From NCBI GenBank assembly GCA_027449165.1, contig DAIDMD010000032.1, positions 1 to 32,211 on the forward strand: a stretch of 32,211 bases of DNA, read 5' to 3'. The first letter of the stretch is position 1, and each line of letters begins with the position of its first letter. The notes under the pieces are model-generated. The model saw only the letters and a list, made by a program, of their open reading frames with translations. It was not told the DNA's origin and did not search any database. Below, piece by piece: positions 11,488 through 28,899 of the stretch. Source of the DNA: Acidiferrobacter sp. (GTDB lineage: Bacteria > Pseudomonadota > Gammaproteobacteria > Acidiferrobacterales > Acidiferrobacteraceae). The translations under genes were made by a program, and so were the position numbers.

Positions 11488-12549
11488 ATGTCCGTATCGG
11501 TAGAAGATCCAGTGGTGATGAGAGACGGTCAGGACGACGCGCGGTTCCAGGCCGCCATGCTGCAGGATGTGTCGCGGACCTTTGCGCTTACGATCCCGCA
11601 GCTGCCCCCGGGGTTGCGCGACGTGGTGGGTAACGGCTATCTGCTCTGCCGTATCGTCGATACCATAGAGGATGATCCGGACATGAGCAGCGCGCAAAAG
11701 CGGCGCTTCTGTACGCTCTTCGCCCAGGTCGTGGCGCGACGCGCCGATCCGGCGGAGTTCGCTCGGGGTCTCGATGCGGTTTTGGCCCCCACGGTGCCGC
11801 CCGCCGAGCGGCTCCTGGTGCGCGAGACCGGGCGGGTGATCGCGATCGCAGACGGCTTTACCCCCGGGCAGCGCAAGGCGCTCGAGACCTGCGTGGCGAT
11901 CATGGCCGACGGCATGGCCGAATTCCAGGAGCGCAAGGATCCGGCGGGTCTTCCGACCCTGGCCGACATGGACCGCTCTTGCTATCACGTGGCCGGCGTC
12001 GTGGGCGAGATGTTGACCCGGCTCTTTTGCGAATACTCGCCGCGTATGCGCCGCGACGAGGACCGCCTCATGGCGCTCGCGGTCTCGTTTGGGCAGACTC
12101 TCCAGATGACCAATATCCTGAAGGACATCTGGGAGGACAGGCGGCGCGGGGCCTGTTGGTTGCCGCAAGACGTATTCGCCCGCCACGGCTTCGCGCTCGC
12201 CGACCTGGATAGGGGCCCGGGCGATGCGCGATTCGGCCAGGGCCTCGCGGAGCTGGTGGGTGTGGCGCGGGCCCACGCGCGCGATGCGCTCGCCTATGTG
12301 CTGCTGATCCCGCGGGAGGAGGTGGGCCTGCGGAATTTTTGCCTATGGGCGCTTGGCATGGCGGTCTTGACCCTGCGCAAGATCGACCGCAGGCGGGATT
12401 TTTCCAGCGGCCAGGATGTAAAGATCACGCGCCGCAGCGTCAAGGCGACGGTGGTGACGAGCCGTCTGGCGGCCGGCCACGATCGGCTTTTACGGCTCCT
12501 GTTCACGCTTTTGGCGGGCTCCTCGCAGCCGTCGTTGCGCAACGTCTGA
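11488..12549 (+). CDS. sqs: Squalene synthase (farnesyl-diphosphate farnesyltransferase), eukaryote-like single enzyme
   Basis: This is a 353-residue head-to-head prenyl synthase that should condense two farnesyl diphosphates and reduce the product to squalene. The first aspartate motif is DTIEDD at 58-63, in the context GYLLCRIVDTIEDD. The second is DIWED at 213-217, within QMTNILKDIWEDRRRG. Between them CYHVAGVVGEMLTRLF (165-180) matches the active-site tyrosine region of eukaryotic squalene synthases (HYVAGLVG) better than HpnC or HpnD. The length also fits that class. A short hydrophobic stretch near residues 334-345 could be a weak membrane tail. The ATG has AGGGAAAGGG just upstream. No hpnC, hpnD or hpnE is in the window, and shc follows 37 bp later, so this gene probably supplies squalene to the cyclase. 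Confidence 0.88.
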   Translation: MSVSVEDPVVMRDGQDDARFQAAMLQDVSRTFALTIPQLPPGLRDVVGNGYLLCRIVDTIEDDPDMSSAQKRRFCTLFAQVVARRADPAEFARGLDAVLAPTVPPAERLLVRETGRVIAIADGFTPGQRKALETCVAIMADGMAEFQERKDPAGLPTLADMDRSCYHVAGVVGEMLTRLFCEYSPRMRRDEDRLMALAVSFGQTLQMTNILKDIWEDRRRGACWLPQDVFARHGFALADLDRGPGDARFGQGLAELVGVARAHARDALAYVLLIPREEVGLRNFCLWALGMAVLTLRKIDRRRDFSSGQDVKITRRSVKATVVTSRLAAGHDRLLRLLFTLLAGSSQPSLRNV

Positions 12550-12586
12550 CTTAAAAAGCGCGTCATTGCCCGAGGAAGTGCAAGGT

Positions 12587-14530
12587 ATGAAGAGTCAGGG
12601 GTTTCCGGCAAAGAACCGGGAGAGGCGGGAGTCTTTGGCGCAAGACGCGGACGGGGCGTTCCTCGACGCGGTCCTGGCGCAGGCCCGCGACCGCATCCTC
12701 GCCGAGCAGGCCCCCGAGGGGTACTGGTGCTGGCCGCTCGAGGCCGATTGCACCATCCCGTCCGAATACATTCTCATGATGCATTTCATGGACGAGATCG
12801 ACCCGGTGCTGGAGGCGAAGCTCGCGCGCTATATCCGCAGCCGGCAGACCGAGGAGGGGGGGTGGCCGTTGTATTACGACGGCCATTTCGACATGAGCGC
12901 GTCGGTCAAGGCCTATTACGCCCTGAAGCTCGCGGGGGACGACGTCGGCGCGCCGCACATGGCGAAGGCCCGCGCGCTCATCCTGAAGCGCGGCGGCGCC
13001 GCCCGCGCCAACGTCTTTACGCGCATCGCCTTGGCGCAGTTCGGCCAGGTCCCTTGGCGCGCGATCCCGTTCATGCCGGTGGAGCTCATCCTGGCCCCCC
13101 GCTGGTTCCCCATCACCTTGGCCAAGGTCTCGTACTGGTCGCGGACCGTGATGGTGCCGCTGCTCGGGCTTTGCAGCCTCAAGGTCCGGGCGCGCAATCC
13201 CCGCGGCATAGGGATATCCGAGCTTTTCGTGCGGCCACCGGACGAGGAGCGCGACTATTTTCCGGTCCGGTCGTTCATGAATTATGTTTTATGCAAGTTC
13301 GAACGGATCGGATTGGGCCTCGAGCGCGCGATCCCGGGCCGCTTGCGGGCCCGGGCCCTGGCCCGGGCCGAGGAGTGGATCATAGAGCGGCTGAATGGGA
13401 CCGGTGGGCTGGGCGCGATTTTTCCGGCGATGGTGAATGCCTACGAGTTCCTGGCGGTGCGCGGCTATGGCCCGGACCATCCCTACCGGCGCGATGCCCT
13501 GGCCGCTATCCAGAAACTCCTGCTGGTGGGCGATGATGAGGCCTACTGCCAGCCGTGCGTCTCGCCTATCTGGGATACGGGTCTCGTGTGCCTGGCGCTT
13601 CTCGAGGCCGACCGCGAGGGGACCAAGGACGCCGTGACGCGCGGCCTTCACTGGATGCGCGACCGCCAGCTGCTCGACGAGCCCGGGGATTGGCGCGACA
13701 GCAGGCCCGACCTGCCCGGCGGCGGCTGGCCGTTCCAGTTCGAGAACGGCCACTACCCGGACCTGGATGACACCAGCGTCGTGGCCTGGGCCATGGAGGA
13801 GTCTTGCGATCCGGCATTTGCCGAATCGATTCGGCGGGCGGCGGAATGGGTCGCGGGCATGCAGTCGCGCAACGGCGGATTCGCGTCGTTCGACGTCGAC
13901 AACACCCACTACTATCTGAACGAGATTCCGTTTGCCGATCATGGGGCCCTGCTCGATCCGCCCACGAGCGACGTGACGGCGCGTTGCATCACCCTGCTTG
14001 CGCGCGCCGGGGGCGGCGGACGCTATCGTGAGGCCATAGCGCGCGCGGTCGCCTACCTGCGCTCCGAGCAGGAGGACTGCGGGGCGTGGTTCGGGCGGTG
14101 GGGGACGAATTACATCTACGGGACCTGGTCGGTCCTGATCGGCCTGCGCGCCGCCGGGATCGGGCGCGACGATCCCGCCGTCTCCGCCGCGGTCCGTTGG
14201 CTCCTGTCCGTTCAGAGGGCCGACGGCGGCTGGGGGGAGAGCAACGATTCCTACCACGACTCGACCTCTGCCGGAACGGGTTCGCGCAGCACGAGTTTCC
14301 AGACCGCGTGGGCGATACTGGCGCTGCTGGCCGCGGGCGAGACGGACAGCGAGGGGGTTCGCCGGGGCGTGCGTTACCTTCTGGCGCACCGCGAACCGGG
14401 CGGCCTGTGGGAGGACGTGGAGTTCACGGCGCCGGGTTTCCCGCGGGTCTTTTATCTGAAGTACCATGGATATGCCCGATATTTCCCGTTATGGGCCCTG
14501 GCGTGTTACCGCAATCGGACGGTCCGCTAA
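12587..14530 (+). CDS. shc: Squalene-hopene cyclase (Shc/HpnF)
   Basis: This is a 647-residue type II triterpene cyclase that folds squalene into hopene/hopanol at the inner membrane, the committed step of hopanoid synthesis. The protonating motif DxDD is present as DLDD at residues 392-395, followed by T-S-V. Several QW-type repeats with the G-x-W/F pattern are visible, for example EGGWPLYYDGHFD early, GGWPFQFENGHYP before DxDD, NGGFASFDVDN, DCGAWFGRWGTNYIYGTW and ADGGWGESNDSY. The C-terminal FYLKYHGYARYFPLWAL is a cyclase hallmark. The ATG at 12587 is chosen because CGAGGAAG lies eight bases upstream; a TTG at 12566 would add seven residues. The length is typical for proteobacterial enzymes. 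The 3' end overlaps the likely hpnG start. Confidence 0.96.
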   Translation: MKSQGFPAKNRERRESLAQDADGAFLDAVLAQARDRILAEQAPEGYWCWPLEADCTIPSEYILMMHFMDEIDPVLEAKLARYIRSRQTEEGGWPLYYDGHFDMSASVKAYYALKLAGDDVGAPHMAKARALILKRGGAARANVFTRIALAQFGQVPWRAIPFMPVELILAPRWFPITLAKVSYWSRTVMVPLLGLCSLKVRARNPRGIGISELFVRPPDEERDYFPVRSFMNYVLCKFERIGLGLERAIPGRLRARALARAEEWIIERLNGTGGLGAIFPAMVNAYEFLAVRGYGPDHPYRRDALAAIQKLLLVGDDEAYCQPCVSPIWDTGLVCLALLEADREGTKDAVTRGLHWMRDRQLLDEPGDWRDSRPDLPGGGWPFQFENGHYPDLDDTSVVAWAMEESCDPAFAESIRRAAEWVAGMQSRNGGFASFDVDNTHYYLNEIPFADHGALLDPPTSDVTARCITLLARAGGGGRYREAIARAVAYLRSEQEDCGAWFGRWGTNYIYGTWSVLIGLRAAGIGRDDPAVSAAVRWLLSVQRADGGWGESNDSYHDSTSAGTGSRSTSFQTAWAILALLAAGETDSEGVRRGVRYLLAHREPGGLWEDVEFTAPGFPRVFYLKYHGYARYFPLWALACYRNRTVR

Positions 14531-21453: not shown

Positions 21454-21467
21454 TTGATTCATATCAA
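21454..21467. promoter_or_regulatory. FNR/ANR-type binding site
   Basis: The sequence TTGAT-TCAT-ATCAA matches the consensus TTGAT-N4-ATCAA exactly. Its centre (21460.5) is 41.5 bases upstream of the start predicted from the -10 box at 21490-21495, the geometry of class II activation by FNR/CRP-family proteins. It stands ahead of a reductase operon of the kind normally induced without oxygen. ANR or DNR-type regulators would recognise the same site. Confidence 0.75.
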
Positions 21468-21489
21468 ATACACGCAGGAACGGCGCGCC

Positions 21490-21495
21490 TATAAC
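21490..21495 (+). promoter_or_regulatory. -10 box (TATAAC) of the FNR-type promoter
   Basis: TATAAC matches TATAAT at five of six positions. No good -35 box sits 16-18 bases upstream because that position is taken by the FNR-type site, as expected for activator-dependent promoters. The predicted start is about 21502, giving a leader of roughly 190 bases before the first gene. Confidence 0.6.
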
Positions 21496-21514
21496 AAACA
21501 AGATCTTACGACGA

Positions 21515-21542: not shown

Positions 21543-21692
21543 GGCTGCCTATAGGGAAGAGACCGGACCGGCAGGTGGATCAAGACCCATTCTGTCCGGC
21601 ATGTCTCAAGACGCGATCCTTAAGGAGGGCGGGGCCGGCTCATGACGCGTCTTCCGTATCGTGCGAATGGGTTTGCAGAGAGGGAGGTCAGC

Positions 21693-22736
21693 ATGGCGAC
21701 CAAAAACAGCGATCTCGATCCGGGGGGTCTGTCGCGCAGGGCCATCCTGAAGGGCCTTATGGGGGTGGCGGCCGGGGCCGCCATGCCCTTGGCGGCGCAC
21801 GCGGCGCTTCAATCCGGTCCGCCTGCCCGTAAGGCCGGTACGGGCCTGCCGCCCGAAACGCAGCCCGAACCCAGTTTGGATCCCCGCAAGAACCCCTCCT
21901 GGGAGGGGTGGAACAATCCGCGCCTCGGGCCTACCAACGGCTGGAGCGATGCGAGCGAGTCCGCGGCGTGGACAACCATTCTCAATCCGGATGGTTTGGC
22001 CATATATCACGATCGATTCTACCGGATACCGGAAAGCCATCCGAAACATCACTGGGTAATGGTGATGGATACGCGCAAATGCGTCGGTTGCCAGGCCTGC
22101 GTGGTCTCCTGCAAATCCGAGAATAATGTTCCGCTGGGCGTCTACCGGACATGGGTGGATGTCTACCAGACAGGCGATACGGTACCCGATCCGGAAGGGG
22201 ATGTCGTTCTGGACGGACGCCGCTATCGCATGGACGCCAAGGTTGTCAACATGCCGAAGATATGCAACCACTGTGCCCATCCTCCGTGTGTCGAAGTGTG
22301 TCCCGTCAAGGCCACGTTCAAGCGCCAGGACGGCATTGTCATGGTCGACCCGAGGCTTTGTATCGGCTGCGGAACCTGTGTCAACGCATGCCCATACGAC
22401 GCGCGCTTCATCAATCCCGTATCGCAGGTTGCCGATAAATGCACATTTTGCGTCGAACGCGTCGACGCGGGCCTTCTGCCGGCCTGCGTCACGAGCTGTG
22501 TGGGGCGTGCCAGGGTTTTCGGCGACATTCTCGATCCCAATAGCGAGGTCTCACACCTCCTGGCGCGGTATCCCCATTCGGTGCGCCATCCGGAGTTCGG
22601 TACCGACCCGCAAGTCTTCTACATCGGGGAAAGCGGGGACATATCGACGGATCCGGACCCGAATGTGCAGCACATGGTCTTTACCTACACCAGTAACGCC
22701 AATAGCAACGTACCGGGCGGGGTCGATGTGATATGA
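21693..22736 (+). CDS. ttrB: Tat-exported 4x[4Fe-4S] ferredoxin subunit of a TtrB/PsrB/NrfC-type reductase
   Basis: This is a 347-residue electron-transfer subunit that passes electrons from the membrane anchor to the molybdenum subunit. A twin-arginine signal, SRRAILKG at 14-21, precedes the hydrophobic LMGVAAGAAMPLAAHA. Four cysteine groups follow the family pattern: C130/133/136/140, C191/194/199/203, C223/226/229/233 and C250/253/265/269, enough for four [4Fe-4S] clusters. About 90 residues lie between the signal and the first cluster, longer than in Salmonella TtrB. I chose the ATG at 21693 because AGGGAGG is five bases upstream and the signal is compact. An ATG at 21642 with a distant AAGGAGG would add 17 residues. 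It is the first gene of the operon behind the FNR-type promoter. The substrate assignment rests on the catalytic subunit. Confidence 0.85.
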   Translation: MATKNSDLDPGGLSRRAILKGLMGVAAGAAMPLAAHAALQSGPPARKAGTGLPPETQPEPSLDPRKNPSWEGWNNPRLGPTNGWSDASESAAWTTILNPDGLAIYHDRFYRIPESHPKHHWVMVMDTRKCVGCQACVVSCKSENNVPLGVYRTWVDVYQTGDTVPDPEGDVVLDGRRYRMDAKVVNMPKICNHCAHPPCVEVCPVKATFKRQDGIVMVDPRLCIGCGTCVNACPYDARFINPVSQVADKCTFCVERVDAGLLPACVTSCVGRARVFGDILDPNSEVSHLLARYPHSVRHPEFGTDPQVFYIGESGDISTDPDPNVQHMVFTYTSNANSNVPGGVDVI

Positions 22737-22826: not shown

Positions 22827-24071
22827 ATGGATTTCGCGAACTCGACCCAGCTTTTCGGCCTTGAGCACGTCTATTGGCAGTTACCCCTGGTCGCCTATCC
22901 GTTCTTGTCCGGCCTGGTGGCGGGGTCGTTCATCGTCGGATCGCTCTCTCACGTGTTTGGGCTGAAGCGTTTCGAGCCGCTTGCCAAGATGGCGATCATC
23001 GTGACTCTGGCGTTCCTCATAGGGGCGGCATTGGCCCCGCTGGCCGAGGCTTGGCAGCGGGAGCGATTCTGGGAACTCATTACCCGCGACCATTTTCCCT
23101 ATTCCCCCCTCGGCATGTTCATCATCGTTTGGATAGCGTACGTCATCCTTGTTCTGGTCGAGATGTATTTTCTCTTTCGCCAAGACAACATCTACTTGGC
23201 CCAGCACGGACGGGGTTGGCGGAAAACCTGGCACGGCCTGTTGACATTCGGGTCGCGCAATCTGTCCGAACCATCATTAAAGCGAGATCATACTATCCTG
23301 GTGTGCCTCGCGGCGGCCGGAATCGTTCTTGCGTTCGCCTTTCATGGCTATGTGGGGTTCGTATTCGGGGCGCTGAAGGCGAGACCCCTGTGGAGTAGCC
23401 CGATGATGCCGGTGATATTCCTGATATCGGCCATCGTCTCGGGTATAGCGGCCATGATCACGGTATATACCCTGATCCAGGGGGGATTGGGCGAAAAGCC
23501 CGTCGATTCGGACATTCTGGACGGCCTAATGGGGCTCATGAAATGGGCGATATTCGTCGATCTTTTCCTGGACCTCATCGAGCTTCTGACGTCCGGGGTG
23601 CGGTCGTATGCCTCATTGCCAGTGTATCGAGGGTTCTCCGCGATCTTCTTTTCGTCTGGCCCGTTAGCATTCAATTATTGGGTCGTGCAGATCGGGCTGC
23701 TTATCGTGGTGCTGGTCATGACGTTCGTGCGCCCGCTCCGGAGATCCCTGGCGGGATCCAACATCGCGGCGTTCCTGGCGCTGGTGAGTGTCTTTGCCAT
23801 GCGCTACAACACGGTGATCGGGGCCGAATTGCAGCCGAAGGCCTCGCAGGGGCTGGTCCGCTATACCCCAACGTGGTTCGGCATGGACAGCTGGCAAGTG
23901 GTGATCGGGCTTTTTGCGATCGTGGTGTTTCTGGTCAGCCTATCGCTGCTGCTGTTGCCGTGGGAGCGCAGTTGGACCGCCTCGTGGTCGAATGAGGGCG
24001 CGGCGGTTCCGGTGCTGCCAGGGGCGGCCGCGGGCCACGCCGCGGGGCCAAAAAAGGGAGGGACGTCATGA
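22827..24071 (+). CDS. ttrC: NrfD/TtrC/PsrC-type quinol-interacting membrane subunit
   Basis: This is a 414-residue integral membrane protein with about eight or nine hydrophobic helices. The clearest span residues 17-41, 54-74, 96-117, 155-181, 193-217, 272-300, 312-331 and 356-378. The family anchors the ferredoxin and catalytic subunits to the periplasmic face and exchanges electrons with the quinone pool. GLEHVYWQLPLVAYPFLSGL at the N-terminus is typical of NrfD proteins. It is longer than Salmonella TtrC. A good GGGAGG lies before the ATG, and a small GC hairpin (GGCCGC-N6-GCGGCC at 22741-22758) sits in the 90-bp gap behind ttrB. Its TGA overlaps the ATG of the catalytic gene (ATGA), so the two are translationally coupled. 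Confidence 0.85.
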   Translation: MDFANSTQLFGLEHVYWQLPLVAYPFLSGLVAGSFIVGSLSHVFGLKRFEPLAKMAIIVTLAFLIGAALAPLAEAWQRERFWELITRDHFPYSPLGMFIIVWIAYVILVLVEMYFLFRQDNIYLAQHGRGWRKTWHGLLTFGSRNLSEPSLKRDHTILVCLAAAGIVLAFAFHGYVGFVFGALKARPLWSSPMMPVIFLISAIVSGIAAMITVYTLIQGGLGEKPVDSDILDGLMGLMKWAIFVDLFLDLIELLTSGVRSYASLPVYRGFSAIFFSSGPLAFNYWVVQIGLLIVVLVMTFVRPLRRSLAGSNIAAFLALVSVFAMRYNTVIGAELQPKASQGLVRYTPTWFGMDSWQVVIGLFAIVVFLVSLSLLLLPWERSWTASWSNEGAAVPVLPGAAAGHAAGPKKGGTS

Positions 24072-27000
24072 GCGCAATCGACAAGAAGGTCACGCGGCGG
24101 CAGTTTATTTTAGGGAGTGTCGCGGCCACCAGCGGGGTCGTGGCGGTTGGGGGGTCGTGGCCGTGGTTGCCGAAGATGTTTTACCGGCCCGGGACTTACA
24201 ACTACCCCATGCTCACCGAGGGCCAGAGTGCCGAGGAGGTGCGCTACAGCGTCTGCCGGCAATGCCGCAGTGATTGCGGCATCGAGGCGCGCGTGGTCAA
24301 TGGCGTTTTGGTCAAGCTGGACGGGAACCCCTATCACCCGAATACGACGGAGCCGCATCTGGACTACGCGACGCCGGTCGCGAAGGCGCGGATGGTGCCG
24401 GTAGCCCACTCGCTGTGCGCGCGCGGCCAAGCCGGGCGGCAAACGGTGTATGACCGCTACAGGATGTATTACCCGTTGAAACGCGCCGGCGCGCGCGGCT
24501 CCAACAAGTGGAAGACCATAAGTTGGGAGCAGCTGACCGACGAGGTCACCAACGGCGGCACCTTATTTAAGGACGTTCCCGGCGAAGAGTCGCGGTATGT
24601 CGAAGGGTTTCGTGACCTCTGGAAAAGCGGCCAGGGACCCAATATTCCCGTGGATCCCCGGCATCCGGACATGGGTCCCATCACGAACCAGTTTGTGGCG
24701 TTTTGGGGACGGGCGGAGCCCGGCCAAAGCGACTTCATCGAGCGGTTCGCAAAGGCATTCGGGTCCGTAAACGCCATTCCCCATGTCTCCATTTGCGAAC
24801 TGAGCCACCACGTGGCGACCAGAACGTCACTGAATGGCAAGATCAACATGATGAAGCCGGATTTCAAGAACTCCGAGTACGTGATCTTTTTCGGGGTGAA
24901 TCTGTACCAAGCCAATTTCCCGATGCAGACGGTAAGCCGAAAGGTGGCGGCGGCGGCTTCGGGCGAAGGGCCCAATCCGCCCCTTAAGTACGTGATCGTC
25001 GATTCCCGCACCCCGCAGGGCGTGGAGCGGGCCATCCGCCATGTGAAGGTCCAGCCCGGGTACGACGGGGCGCTCGCCATGGGCATGATCCGGCACATCA
25101 TCGAGACCCACCGGTATAACGCAAGTTACCTGTCTTATCCCAGTTCGGATGCCGCGGCCCATGCGAAGGAGTTGAATTTCACCAATGCCACCTGGCTTGT
25201 GGTTGCGGATCCTCATCATGCCTTGCATCGGCAGTTCCTGACCGCCGAGGCCGCGGGCCTGGCGCCTCGGGGCGGGGGGCCTGTCGTGATCGATGCCGCA
25301 ACCGGAAGGCCGGGTACCGCGGACCGCGTTGCGTCCGCGCGGCTGTGGCCGGGCAAGGATCTTTCCCCGGAGCCGATCCGGGTGAACGGCATAGCCTGCC
25401 AGACGAGTTTTCAGATCCTCTATGAGGAGGCGCGTTCCCATACCATAGAGGAGTACGCGGAGCTTGCCGGCATTCGCGAGGACGCCATCGTGGAGTTGGC
25501 CGAGGAGTTCACGGCGCATGGGCGCCGGGCGGCCGCGGACTTCTACAGGGGCCCCGTCAAACATACCAATGGGGCCTACAGCGGGCGGGCCATCATGACG
25601 CTGAATTTCCTGATCGGCTGCGTCGATTGGGCGGGCGGCTACATAACCGGCGGCAAGCCGGCCGATTACCTGGGCACATACAAAGGCGCGCCTTATAACC
25701 TGACGAAATGGCCATCGCATTCCCCCGCTCGCACGGTGCCCCCTGGGGTGGCCATATCCCGCGAAGGGAGCTTTTACGAAGAGACATCCTTGTATAAGGA
25801 GGCTGTGACGGCCGGGAAGGATCCGTTCCCGACCCCCCGGCCGTGGCTGCCGTTCGGCTTCGGCATATGGCAGGAGCTTTTTGGCGGCGCGTGGAGTCAG
25901 TACCCGTATCCCGTGAAGATCCTTTTTATGCACGAGGCGAACCCCGCGTGGTCGGCGCCCCCGGGGATGAGCGGCCACCCGGACGAGAACCTGTCGTTTT
26001 TCCGTCTGATCAAGGATCTCAAAAAAGTCCCGCTGTTCATTGCCAGCGATATCCTCGTCGCCGAAACATCGAGCTATGCAGACTACATCGTTCCGGATAC
26101 CAACTATCCGGAGATATGGGGGATGCTGCCGGGGTTCCCAACGGTTCCGACATCCGTCATAGGCGTGCGCCATCCCGTCATCGAGCCGCTGACGGCGAAG
26201 ACCCCGACGGGTGCCCCGATGTGTATGGAGAACTTCCTGATCGATGTCGCCAAGAAGCTCGGTATGCCGGGCTTCGGCAAACACGCCTTTCTGGAGGGCG
26301 GAGACCTCAATGAGCGGGAAGACCTTTATCTCAAGATGATAGCCAATATCGCCTACGACCCGTCGTTACTGCGGCGCGAAGGCGGGCGGTTGGTGGCGAC
26401 GGGCCCCGTGCCAGACGCCTCCACGCCGGAGGATTGGAAGGAGGCGAATCGATTCAAGGCCCGGCACGGCGCGGCGTTGCGCGAGGCGCAGTGGGCCAAG
26501 GTCGCCTACGTGCTTTCCCGCGGCGGCCGTTTCGAGGATTACGACGTAGGCTACCTGCCCGACAGGCCGGAGGTCATGACGTACCGGTATGGGGCCGGAA
26601 AATTGCCGTGTCAGATTTACAATCCGATTGTGGCCAGGACCCACAACACCGTAAGCGGAGAGTGGCTTTCTGGTGTGGCGAAGTTCGAGCATCTGCGCTT
26701 GTTGGATGGCAGGCGGCTCGATGCGCTGGACTCGAAGGAGAAGTATCCGTTCGTGCTCATTACCTACAAGCAGCCGATCCACAGCAAGAGTCGCACCTGG
26801 GCGGATCAATGGCTGGTCGAATTGATGCCCGAGTCCTTCGCGGAAATTAACCCGTTCGATGCGCGCAATCTTGGCGTGAAAGACGGCGATTGGGTGATCA
26901 TCCGTTCGGCGACCTATCCCAAGGGATATAAGACCCAAGTGCAGATTATGCCCGGCGTGCGGCCCGGCGTGGTGTCGTTTCCGGCGGCCTTCGGCCACTG

Positions 27001-27244
27001 GCACTACAACTCCGGTCACTGGACCATAAACGGGGAGACGCATCGCGGCGACGACGCCAAGAATACCCGCACGCGCATGAACCATCTTATGCGCCTCGAC
27101 CCCAGCATTACCGCCGAGGGCGGCTGGGGCACCTGTCTGCAGGATCCGTACGGGGGTAGTGCGTGCTATTACGATACGCGCGTCCGGATCGAGAAAACGA
27201 CGGCGCCCAAGGAAGGCATGTATATGCGGGAAGCGCGTGTCTGA
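24068..27244 (+). CDS. ttrA: Molybdopterin catalytic subunit, tetrathionate-reductase-like (TtrA family)
   Basis: This is a 1058-residue periplasmic bis-MGD enzyme of the DMSO-reductase superfamily. It has a twin-arginine signal (TRRQFILG, residues 9-16). The N-terminal [4Fe-4S] ligands are C63, C66, C70 and C117. C243 in SICELSHH is the likely molybdenum ligand, as in PsrA, TtrA and ArrA enzymes. From memory, its segments line up with Salmonella TtrA: GNPYHP, ALAMGMIRHIIETHRYNASYL, FTNATWLVVAD, the YPYPVK region, ADYIVPDTNYPEIWG and LSRGGRF. Length and segment order also fit TtrA better than PhsA/PsrA (about 750 residues). Tetrathionate reduction is therefore the first choice; sulfur/polysulfide reduction (SreA-type) or arsenate reduction cannot be excluded by eye. 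Translation is coupled to ttrC, and a TorD-like chaperone follows. Confidence 0.82.
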   Translation: MSAIDKKVTRRQFILGSVAATSGVVAVGGSWPWLPKMFYRPGTYNYPMLTEGQSAEEVRYSVCRQCRSDCGIEARVVNGVLVKLDGNPYHPNTTEPHLDYATPVAKARMVPVAHSLCARGQAGRQTVYDRYRMYYPLKRAGARGSNKWKTISWEQLTDEVTNGGTLFKDVPGEESRYVEGFRDLWKSGQGPNIPVDPRHPDMGPITNQFVAFWGRAEPGQSDFIERFAKAFGSVNAIPHVSICELSHHVATRTSLNGKINMMKPDFKNSEYVIFFGVNLYQANFPMQTVSRKVAAAASGEGPNPPLKYVIVDSRTPQGVERAIRHVKVQPGYDGALAMGMIRHIIETHRYNASYLSYPSSDAAAHAKELNFTNATWLVVADPHHALHRQFLTAEAAGLAPRGGGPVVIDAATGRPGTADRVASARLWPGKDLSPEPIRVNGIACQTSFQILYEEARSHTIEEYAELAGIREDAIVELAEEFTAHGRRAAADFYRGPVKHTNGAYSGRAIMTLNFLIGCVDWAGGYITGGKPADYLGTYKGAPYNLTKWPSHSPARTVPPGVAISREGSFYEETSLYKEAVTAGKDPFPTPRPWLPFGFGIWQELFGGAWSQYPYPVKILFMHEANPAWSAPPGMSGHPDENLSFFRLIKDLKKVPLFIASDILVAETSSYADYIVPDTNYPEIWGMLPGFPTVPTSVIGVRHPVIEPLTAKTPTGAPMCMENFLIDVAKKLGMPGFGKHAFLEGGDLNEREDLYLKMIANIAYDPSLLRREGGRLVATGPVPDASTPEDWKEANRFKARHGAALREAQWAKVAYVLSRGGRFEDYDVGYLPDRPEVMTYRYGAGKLPCQIYNPIVARTHNTVSGEWLSGVAKFEHLRLLDGRRLDALDSKEKYPFVLITYKQPIHSKSRTWADQWLVELMPESFAEINPFDARNLGVKDGDWVIIRSATYPKGYKTQVQIMPGVRPGVVSFPAAFGHWHYNSGHWTINGETHRGDDAKNTRTRMNHLMRLDPSITAEGGWGTCLQDPYGGSACYYDTRVRIEKTTAPKEGMYMREARV

Positions 27245-27345
27245 CCTGGCGCGGGAAAGACCCTATCATCAGAGGTGATGGGACGTTTTGCGGCCCATGG
27301 CCATGGGGGCTGCTCGGCCGGTTTTGAGGGATGGCGGGGGTTGCG

Positions 27346-27984
27346 ATGGCTGCGCTAGGCGAACGACAGGCGATTTCCGAAGTGCTTCGAATATTTTCCG
27401 GCCTGTTCGATGGGCCGCCACCGCCCGCGGTGGTGGAGGTGTTGCTGCACGATACGATTCCGGCGTTACAGCGGATAGGGGATCGCCCGCCCCACGATCA
27501 CGGCGCGCAAATCGGCGACTTCGAGAGGGAGTACGAGGCGCTCTTTCTCATCCCTACGCATGATCATATAAGCCCTTACATTTCCCACCATCAGCAAAAA
27601 GGCGAGCGGCCCCGGGACGGCCTTGTGGCGGACCTGGCGGCGCTTGCCGCGGCTATGGGCATCCCGTGGAGAAAAGACACATTTGTGCCGGGCAGGGCAT
27701 TTCCGGTCTCGCCGGATCATATCAGCGTAGCGATCGGAATGGCCGCGATCCTCTTCGTGGCGGGCGAGGAAGGGGCGTCCCACGCCCAGCGCGCGGCATT
27801 CTGGGTTCGGGAGATTCTGGCCGCGTGCGCGGGGGCCTTAAGCGATATGCGGGAGTATATTCAATCGCTCGAGCGGCCCCCCCGCGCCTATGGTGCGGTT
27901 GTGGAGTTGGCGGCCGCCTATCTGGAGCGATGCCTGAGGGAGGAGGTGTGGGAGATCAGGGAGGACGATGCCTTATCCGCTTGA
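27346..27984 (+). CDS. TorD-like chaperone for the molybdoenzyme
   Basis: This is a 212-residue, mainly helical acidic protein of the TorD/DmsD/NarJ type. Such proteins hold the Tat-exported molybdoenzyme until cofactor insertion is complete and guard its signal peptide. The family-like core is FEREYEALFLIPTHDHISPY followed by a long helical C-terminal half ending in the acidic EVWEIREDDA. The ATG at 27346 is chosen because GGCGGGGG lies five bases upstream; an ATG at 27331 would add five residues but has its SD abutting the start codon. It follows the catalytic gene by 101 bp on the same strand and is the last gene before a terminator-like hairpin. The family call rests on context, length and weak motifs. 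Confidence 0.72.
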   Translation: MAALGERQAISEVLRIFSGLFDGPPPPAVVEVLLHDTIPALQRIGDRPPHDHGAQIGDFEREYEALFLIPTHDHISPYISHHQQKGERPRDGLVADLAALAAAMGIPWRKDTFVPGRAFPVSPDHISVAIGMAAILFVAGEEGASHAQRAAFWVREILAACAGALSDMREYIQSLERPPRAYGAVVELAAAYLERCLREEVWEIREDDALSA

Positions 27985-28065: not shown

Positions 28066-28353
28066 TCATGATTGATAGTGTGCATCGAGCCATTCTTTAA
28101 GGACCGCCTCCAAGCGGGTTTGCCATCCCGGACCGGAGGCGCGAAATCTGGCCACGACCTCGCGAGACAGACGTATGGTCACGCGTTCTTTCGTCGCTGC
28201 GGCCGGAGGGCGCTCCGATCTTTTCAGTTTACGAAACTCAGTATCTGTTAACTCGTAGGTATCCGGATCCTGGGCAATCCCCGCCTGGATGGCGGACTCT
28301 TCTTCGGGCATGGGCAGATCAAATATCCGCGCCGACTTAGATTTGACTGGCAT
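28066..28353 (-). CDS. brnA: BrnA-family antitoxin
   Basis: This is a 95-residue antitoxin of the BrnA type, which neutralises the BrnT ribonuclease and represses its own operon through a ribbon-helix-helix-like C-terminal domain. Recognisable parts are the N-terminal DPDTYELTDTEFRKLKR and the C-terminal VTIRLSREVVARFRASGPG with WQTRLEAVLKEWL, a strong BrnA signature. The ATG at 28353 is chosen because GAGAGG lies nine bases upstream; an ATG at 28374 with GGAAGG three bases upstream would add seven residues. The gene overlaps the 3' end of brnT by 17 bp in the normal toxin-antitoxin order. It converges with the reductase operon. Base composition is lower in GC than the hopanoid locus. Confidence 0.85.
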   Translation of the reverse strand: MPVKSKSARIFDLPMPEEESAIQAGIAQDPDTYELTDTEFRKLKRSERPPAAATKERVTIRLSREVVARFRASGPGWQTRLEAVLKEWLDAHYQS

Positions 28354-28579
28354 AACGTCCGACCTCTCTTGCATTGGCCTTCCTGAGGCTGACAATGCGG
28401 CGCTTGTCACCGCGATCCGTAAAGACCACGCAAAACACCCGAGCCCCGATAGGTGCGTATCCGATCATGCCCAACTCGCCATAATCGCGGCGCGTATCCG
28501 GTTGAGCCCGTAGCCCATCCCACTCCAGTTCCGATGCCAGCGCCAGAGATACGTCGTACTTGGCGTTACAGCGCAACAA
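28337..28579 (-). CDS. brnT: BrnT-family toxin, apparently N-terminally shortened
   Basis: The core of the BrnT ribonuclease toxin is clear: KYDVSLALA, then DTRRDYGELGMIGYAPIG, RVFCVVFTDRGDKRR and IVSLRKANAREVGRY. Intact BrnT proteins begin about 12 residues earlier with a conserved FDPAK/EWDxxK strand. Here the frame opens at a TTG directly before CNAKYDV, and the conserved strand is missing. Reading upstream on the minus strand in all three frames I could not find it, and an in-frame TAA lies farther up. No good ribosome-binding site precedes the TTG. The toxin may therefore be a truncated remnant, or an unusual start is used. Annotated length would be 80 residues, a little short for the family. 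Confidence 0.68.
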   Translation of the reverse strand: MLRCNAKYDVSLALASELEWDGLRAQPDTRRDYGELGMIGYAPIGARVFCVVFTDRGDKRRIVSLRKANAREVGRYASQI

Positions 28580-28899
28580 ATTATGTGGCTGCGCGAGAAA
28601 AGCCCGAAACTGGGCAATTTATTGCTTTTTCTCGAAGCTCCGTTTCCGAATTTTATAACTATGCGCGCTGGAAAGCCAAAGAAGGTCCCGTTGTGGTCAT
28701 TTGATCGCCGCCCGCCCTGTCACATTGCCTACACGAACCCGCCTGCGTCCGTTCACTTTACCGCAATAATGGCTTCCTATAGTCGCGCCCATCGGAGGTA
28801 ATCGCAGGACGCGGAAAGCCGACTGAAACGGCGTCCGGCAATGTGCCCGAAGCCGCGATGCTGGGCCCGCGCGGGGTTTCGTAAATCTTAGGGGGGCGT
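28580..28899. other. Gap between brnT and the TonB receptor, no recognisable gene
   Basis: About 320 bp of lower-GC DNA. Short open frames exist on the plus strand (for example 28583-28801), but none shows motifs, codon bias or a ribosome-binding site that I can support. It may hold the lost 5' end of the toxin locus and the leader of the receptor gene. No riboswitch pattern was recognised. Confidence 0.55.
28757..28784 (+). promoter_or_regulatory. Weak candidate promoter for the TonB receptor gene
   Basis: TTTACC (28757-28762) and TATAGT (28779-28784) are 16 bases apart, with four and five matches to the sigma70 boxes. The start would be near 28791, leaving about 110 bases of leader. No Fur box or other known operator was recognised nearby. 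Confidence 0.3.

Follow-up and report, generated by a model that had tools for sequence, protein, structure and literature searches.

The inverted repeat TTGATTCATATCAA, found ahead of a four-gene molybdoenzyme operon in Acidiferrobacter sp., is in all likelihood (probability roughly 0.85) an FNR operator in the class II position, which would switch on the operon when oxygen is lacking. The whole stretch of DNA that was analysed, 32,211 nucleotides of one contig, is referred to as the window, and its relevant features are collected in Table 1. In the course of events that we propose, FNR would keep its [4Fe-4S] cluster when oxygen is absent, dimerise and bind the palindrome, and the bound protein would recruit sigma-70 RNA polymerase to a weak promoter, formed by TATAAC and a start near 21502. 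Expression of the operon would then yield a periplasmic, quinol-linked molybdoenzyme (gene order B-C-A-chaperone), by which the cell might respire an alternative acceptor. We infer FNR binding, the start site, the oxygen response and the substrate from sequence; control of the operon by oxygen through FNR is well supported but unproven, and it constitutes a solid, testable prediction for a draft genome. An FNR-switched reductase operon is in itself ordinary biology.

Table 1. Features of the predicted FNR-type promoter and of the reductase operon in the window
Feature	Position	Strand	Remarks
FNR-type palindrome	21454-21467	.	direct sequence reading
Probable -10 hexamer TATAAC	21490-21495	+	22 nt after the palindrome; 22-nt spacing common to six homologous promoters
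Predicted transcription start (+1)	21502	+	from the -10 position; site centre at -41.5
TtrB-like 4Fe-4S ferredoxin subunit (B)	21642-22736	+	twin-arginine leader SRRAILKG
NrfD/PsrC-type membrane anchor (C)	22827-24071	+	
Molybdopterin catalytic subunit (A)	24068-27244	+	1058 aa; twin-arginine leader; Mo-ligand Cys in SICELSHH
TorD/NarJ-type maturation chaperone	27331-27984	+	PF02613

The palindrome and the predicted promoter

The letters of the palindrome were read directly, and a pattern scan finds it to be the only exact match to TTGATN4ATCAA in the 32-kb window, which bears out the preliminary description of a perfect consensus site at this place. Taking position 21495 as -7 sets +1 at 21502 and the centre of the site, 21460.5, at -41.5, and the coordinates likewise agree with the earlier claim that TATAAC implies such a centre, given the predicted start. 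TATAAC matches the -10 consensus at five of six positions and is without the T at -7, the chance of a 5-of-6 hexamer being about 0.005 at one given position and about 0.015 within three positions. Two rival hexamers further downstream also match at five of six positions, TAGAAT (21518) and TATATT (21537), and would put the centre of the site at -69.5 and -88.5, respectively. A generic promoter scan gave no sigma-70 sites, because it accepts only hexamers that end in T and are accompanied by a -35 box; where a class II activator acts, a weak -35 is expected. In the opposite direction from the palindrome, on the strand of the divergent GGDEF/EAL gene, no -10 is found at the 22-nt spacing, and the site therefore points to the reductase operon; action of the palindrome on the GGDEF/EAL gene was rejected for the same want of a -10 at the right distance.

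The spacing may be judged against TtrA-like operons gathered from other orders, named halophiles, Marinobacter and plasmids, which together with the window make up 16 loci. Eight of these, the window included, carry an upstream site with no more than one mismatch, as compared with 0.25 expected. In seven of the eight, again counting the window, the site is followed at exactly 22 nt by a -10-like hexamer (TATAAC in the window; TATACT, TATTAC, TATTTT, TATAGT, CATACT and TATGTT elsewhere), while the E. coli plasmid ttr operon, whose site has one mismatch, lacks the hexamer at 22 nt. At this spacing the -10 scores of the site-bearing loci sum to 32, the mean for shuffled sequence being 13.9 (p ~5e-6), bearing in mind that the eight loci are not fully independent since two of them (L128 and L129) are close relatives, and when spacings from 5 to 49 nt are scanned the best score other than that at 22 nt is 21. 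Since the 22-nt spacing is conserved in homologous operons, the predicted -41.5 of the window is unlikely to be a lucky choice.

FNR and its regulon in the genus

Two checks proposed in the preliminary description, a genome scan for the palindrome and a search for an fnr/anr gene with its cysteine cluster, were carried out and both had a positive outcome. In the genome (77% complete, 2.08 Mb) the exact TTGATN4ATCAA pattern occurs five times, compared with none for the reversed control pattern, and one of these sites lies about 100 bp upstream of the start of fnr itself. Two others, in contigs C50 and C128, fall within the prkA and nuoC reading frames and were for this reason not accepted as regulatory, and that in contig C108 has a transposase and ABC-transporter fragments as neighbours. 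The FNR encoded in this genome is canonical (244 aa, contig C137, L045:4814-5548, minus strand): it has all four cluster cysteines, three of them in RCSNCSLREIC (Cys-x2-Cys-x5-Cys) and the central one in VCEIP, as well as a recognition helix of the ExxSR type (LKLETVSRMF, with ETVSR), and it aligns over its full length with the solved FNR structures 5CVR/5E44. Its NCBIfam score of 222.8 is just under the cut-off of 228, yet the defining residues are present.

The gene is found in all 14 genomes of the genus, and an upstream site that departs from the consensus at one position at most is located at about -104 to -115 from its start codon in 12 congeners as well as in the present genome, the comparison covering every congener with a complete fnr gene and upstream region (12). 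A similar site precedes hemN at -61/-62 from the start in 10 congeners and the present genome, in one case with two mismatches and in the others with at most one. Across the genus the arms of the fnr and hemN sites persist, whereas the sequence around them and the four bases at the centre vary. Both genes are classic FNR/ANR targets, and hemN adjoins ubiT/ubiD-type genes, which like hemN are expected in an anaerobic regulon. Three one-mismatch FNR-type sites occur in this region (C137, L061 3336, 4877 and 6679), around ubiT/ubiD, hemN and a small cytochrome-like gene. The fnr site has no activating distance from any obvious -10 and probably represents autoregulation, presumably by repression, rather than an example of class II activation, and the hemN promoters were left out as support for the geometry, as they have merely a weak -10 some 22-23 nt after the site. 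The earlier notion that the reductase operon is expressed from a class II promoter of the FNR type is supported by the canonical FNR, by the fnr/hemN regulon of the genus and by the 22-nt spacing in homologous operons.

It could be argued that the palindrome arose by chance and that the operon is read from another promoter, given that at least two of the five exact sites in the genome are inside genes and that alternative -10 hexamers are present, but dinucleotide shuffling of the 541-bp intergenic region never produced an exact match in 5000 trials and the geometry is conserved in homologous operons, which renders this explanation most improbable. A further alternative is that the site is bound mainly by an NO-sensing Crp-family regulator of the DNR/NNR type, in which case the operon would answer to NO or denitrification besides or instead of oxygen. 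The genome does encode a second, DNR-like protein of the Crp family, with DNR as best solved match (3DKW, E 1.7e-37); its recognition helix, ETFSR, has the same ExxSR signature as FNR, which makes the protein a serious competitor for this sequence, and it is without the N-terminal cysteine cluster. However, the best NCBIfam match of this protein is FtrB, below cut-off, the same sites are found ahead of hemN and of fnr itself, and the site is kept in homologous operons of unrelated families, and we consider it unlikely that FNR is not the main regulator.

The reductase operon and its distribution

The genes downstream of the FNR-type site are of an anaerobic-respiration type, as previously claimed, comprising an Fe-S subunit, an NrfD anchor, a Mo subunit and a TorD-like chaperone. 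For the B subunit an ATG at 21694, with GGGAGGT ahead of it, is a likelier start than 21642. The enzyme is probably periplasmic, as predicted from the twin-arginine leaders on A and B, and the Mo-ligand cysteine of A aligns with its counterpart in 2VPW, the structure of the Thermus polysulfide/thiosulfate reductase. Immediately beyond the end of the operon, at 28066-28640 on the minus strand, reading of the translation suggests a probable BrnT/BrnA-like toxin-antitoxin pair, and a hopanoid-type cluster elsewhere in the window (11488-14530) comprises genes for squalene/phytoene synthase and squalene-hopene cyclase, an MMPL transporter being close to them.

The operon is accessory, either recently gained or often lost. 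Among 57 genomes of the order it is intact and of high identity only here, two others having relatives at about 31-37% identity, and the operon genes have a GC content of 59-63%, lower than the 68% of the initial 19 kb of the window. Apart from the present genome, only one member of the genus, G009, has any vestige of the operon, with the same downstream neighbours as here. In its remnant (L044 6964-9735, G009:C2) the A gene is frameshifted, residues 170-889 being gone and residues 81-169 and 890-1058 kept; the chaperone gene is split in two, by about 1.2 kb, and B, C and the promoter were not detected in G009.

Kinship of the catalytic subunit and the question of substrate

Subunit A is a Cys-ligated Mo subunit, with FeS and NrfD partners, that is nearest to the TtrA/SrdA/alternative arsenate reductase clade. 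In published phylogenies the reductases of tetrathionate and selenate share a clade with the archaeal-type arsenate reductases (PMC7331816, PMC10100899), and as far as sequence can tell the operon belongs within this wider clade, in which SrdA and the Pyrobaculum members are placed by published phylogeny. A comparison with archaeal/Aquifex 'SreA' was dropped, since published trees put those enzymes elsewhere (PMC10100899).

The preliminary description had proposed facultative anaerobic sulfur respiration, and the operon would indeed serve sulfur respiration if it encoded a genuine tetrathionate reductase, for which it speaks that TtrA and TtrB are the best curated families of A and B and that the B-C-A order is that of ttrBCA. 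However, A attains 550 bits with the TtrA profile, where the cut-off is 1750 and an annotated TtrA scores 2075, B attains 239 bits with the TtrB profile against a cut-off of 416, A is 33% identical to curated TtrA versus about 40% to enzymes with a CExSHH motif, and a ttrSR pair was not recognised among the family-searched genes of the window. The Mo-ligand motif is furthermore unlike that of TtrA, being YCGxxYR or YCGxxFR in the TtrA group and SICELSHH in the window; CELSHH is also found in L128, L129 and the Citrobacter protein, CEVSHH in L130 and CEQSHH in L116. We therefore regard a genuine tetrathionate reductase as possible but rather doubtful, and the proposal of sulfur respiration is not supported: it is undercut by the profile scores and the motif, and further weakened by the facts that characterised members of the clade reduce tetrathionate, selenate or arsenate (PMC10100899, PMC7331816) and that ars operons are neighbours of relatives sharing the motif of the window. 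For TtrA-like operons, sulfur respiration should consequently not be the default reading.

In the tree the window forms a long branch, whose support for joining the Citrobacter/L128-L130 group is weak (0.04), and the motif is therefore the stronger link to this group. A phylum-wide search for further CExSHH enzymes returned eight of ten with the YCG motif and two of ten with an unreadable motif. An uncharacterised TtrA-like molybdoenzyme operon is seen on conjugative arsenic plasmids of Citrobacter/Enterobacter (L134 7154-12549, L150 4154-9549), and in the L134 copy an FNR-type site is followed at 22 nt by a -10. The copies in Citrobacter arsenatis and on pEL-ars2 of Enterobacter ludwigii, which probably represent a single element, are arranged divergently to arsRDABC, as is the L129 operon to an ArsC-like/ArsD/ArsA cluster. 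Genes of the ars type were not recognised among the family-searched genes of the window, L128 and L130, nor was ArsD found in the present genome (77% complete).

An arsenate, selenate or polythionate-type oxyanion as acceptor fits the clade; a sulfur compound as substrate is unproven, and the enzyme may instead act on arsenate or selenate. Arsenate as the predicted substrate is a lead, not a result, and it is only tentatively that we envisage an uncharacterised, FNR-switched TtrA-like branch with a CE(L/V/Q)SHH motif, respiring arsenate (or antimonate/selenate) and residing on conjugative Enterobacteria ars plasmids as well as in this genus. If the CExSHH branch does reduce arsenate, this would amount to FNR-controlled arsenic mobilisation on conjugative plasmids of Enterobacteria and in other orders.

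Comparison with known systems

In the FNR/ANR class II promoters of E. coli and P. aeruginosa, TTGATN4ATCAA is centred at -41.5 upstream of the -10, and the window is alike in operator and, by prediction, in centre and -10. The operon furthermore resembles ttrBCA of Salmonella and Enterobacteria in its B-C-A order, the twin-arginine leader of A and the NrfD-type anchor, and, as Salmonella ttr expression needs FNR (discussed in PMC11293645), FNR dependence would by prediction be a likeness as well. It is unlike ttrBCA in that A is 33% identical and far under the TtrA cut-off, that CELSHH is found here and YCGxxYR there, that ttrSR is adjacent to ttrBCA and none was recognised here, and that the TorD-like gene is extra here. 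With srdBCA of Bacillus selenatarsenatis and the Pyrobaculum-type alternative arsenate reductase it shares the clade, according to published phylogeny (PMC7331816, PMC10100899), as well as the subunit plan. The operon of Citrobacter arsenatis and Enterobacter ludwigii pEL-ars2 differs by its identity of about 40% and by the divergent arsRDABC, not recognised among the family-searched genes of the window, but it is alike in having B-C-A followed by a downstream small gene, and the C. arsenatis copy and the window have the CELSHH motif, the FNR-type site and the -10 at 22 nt in common.
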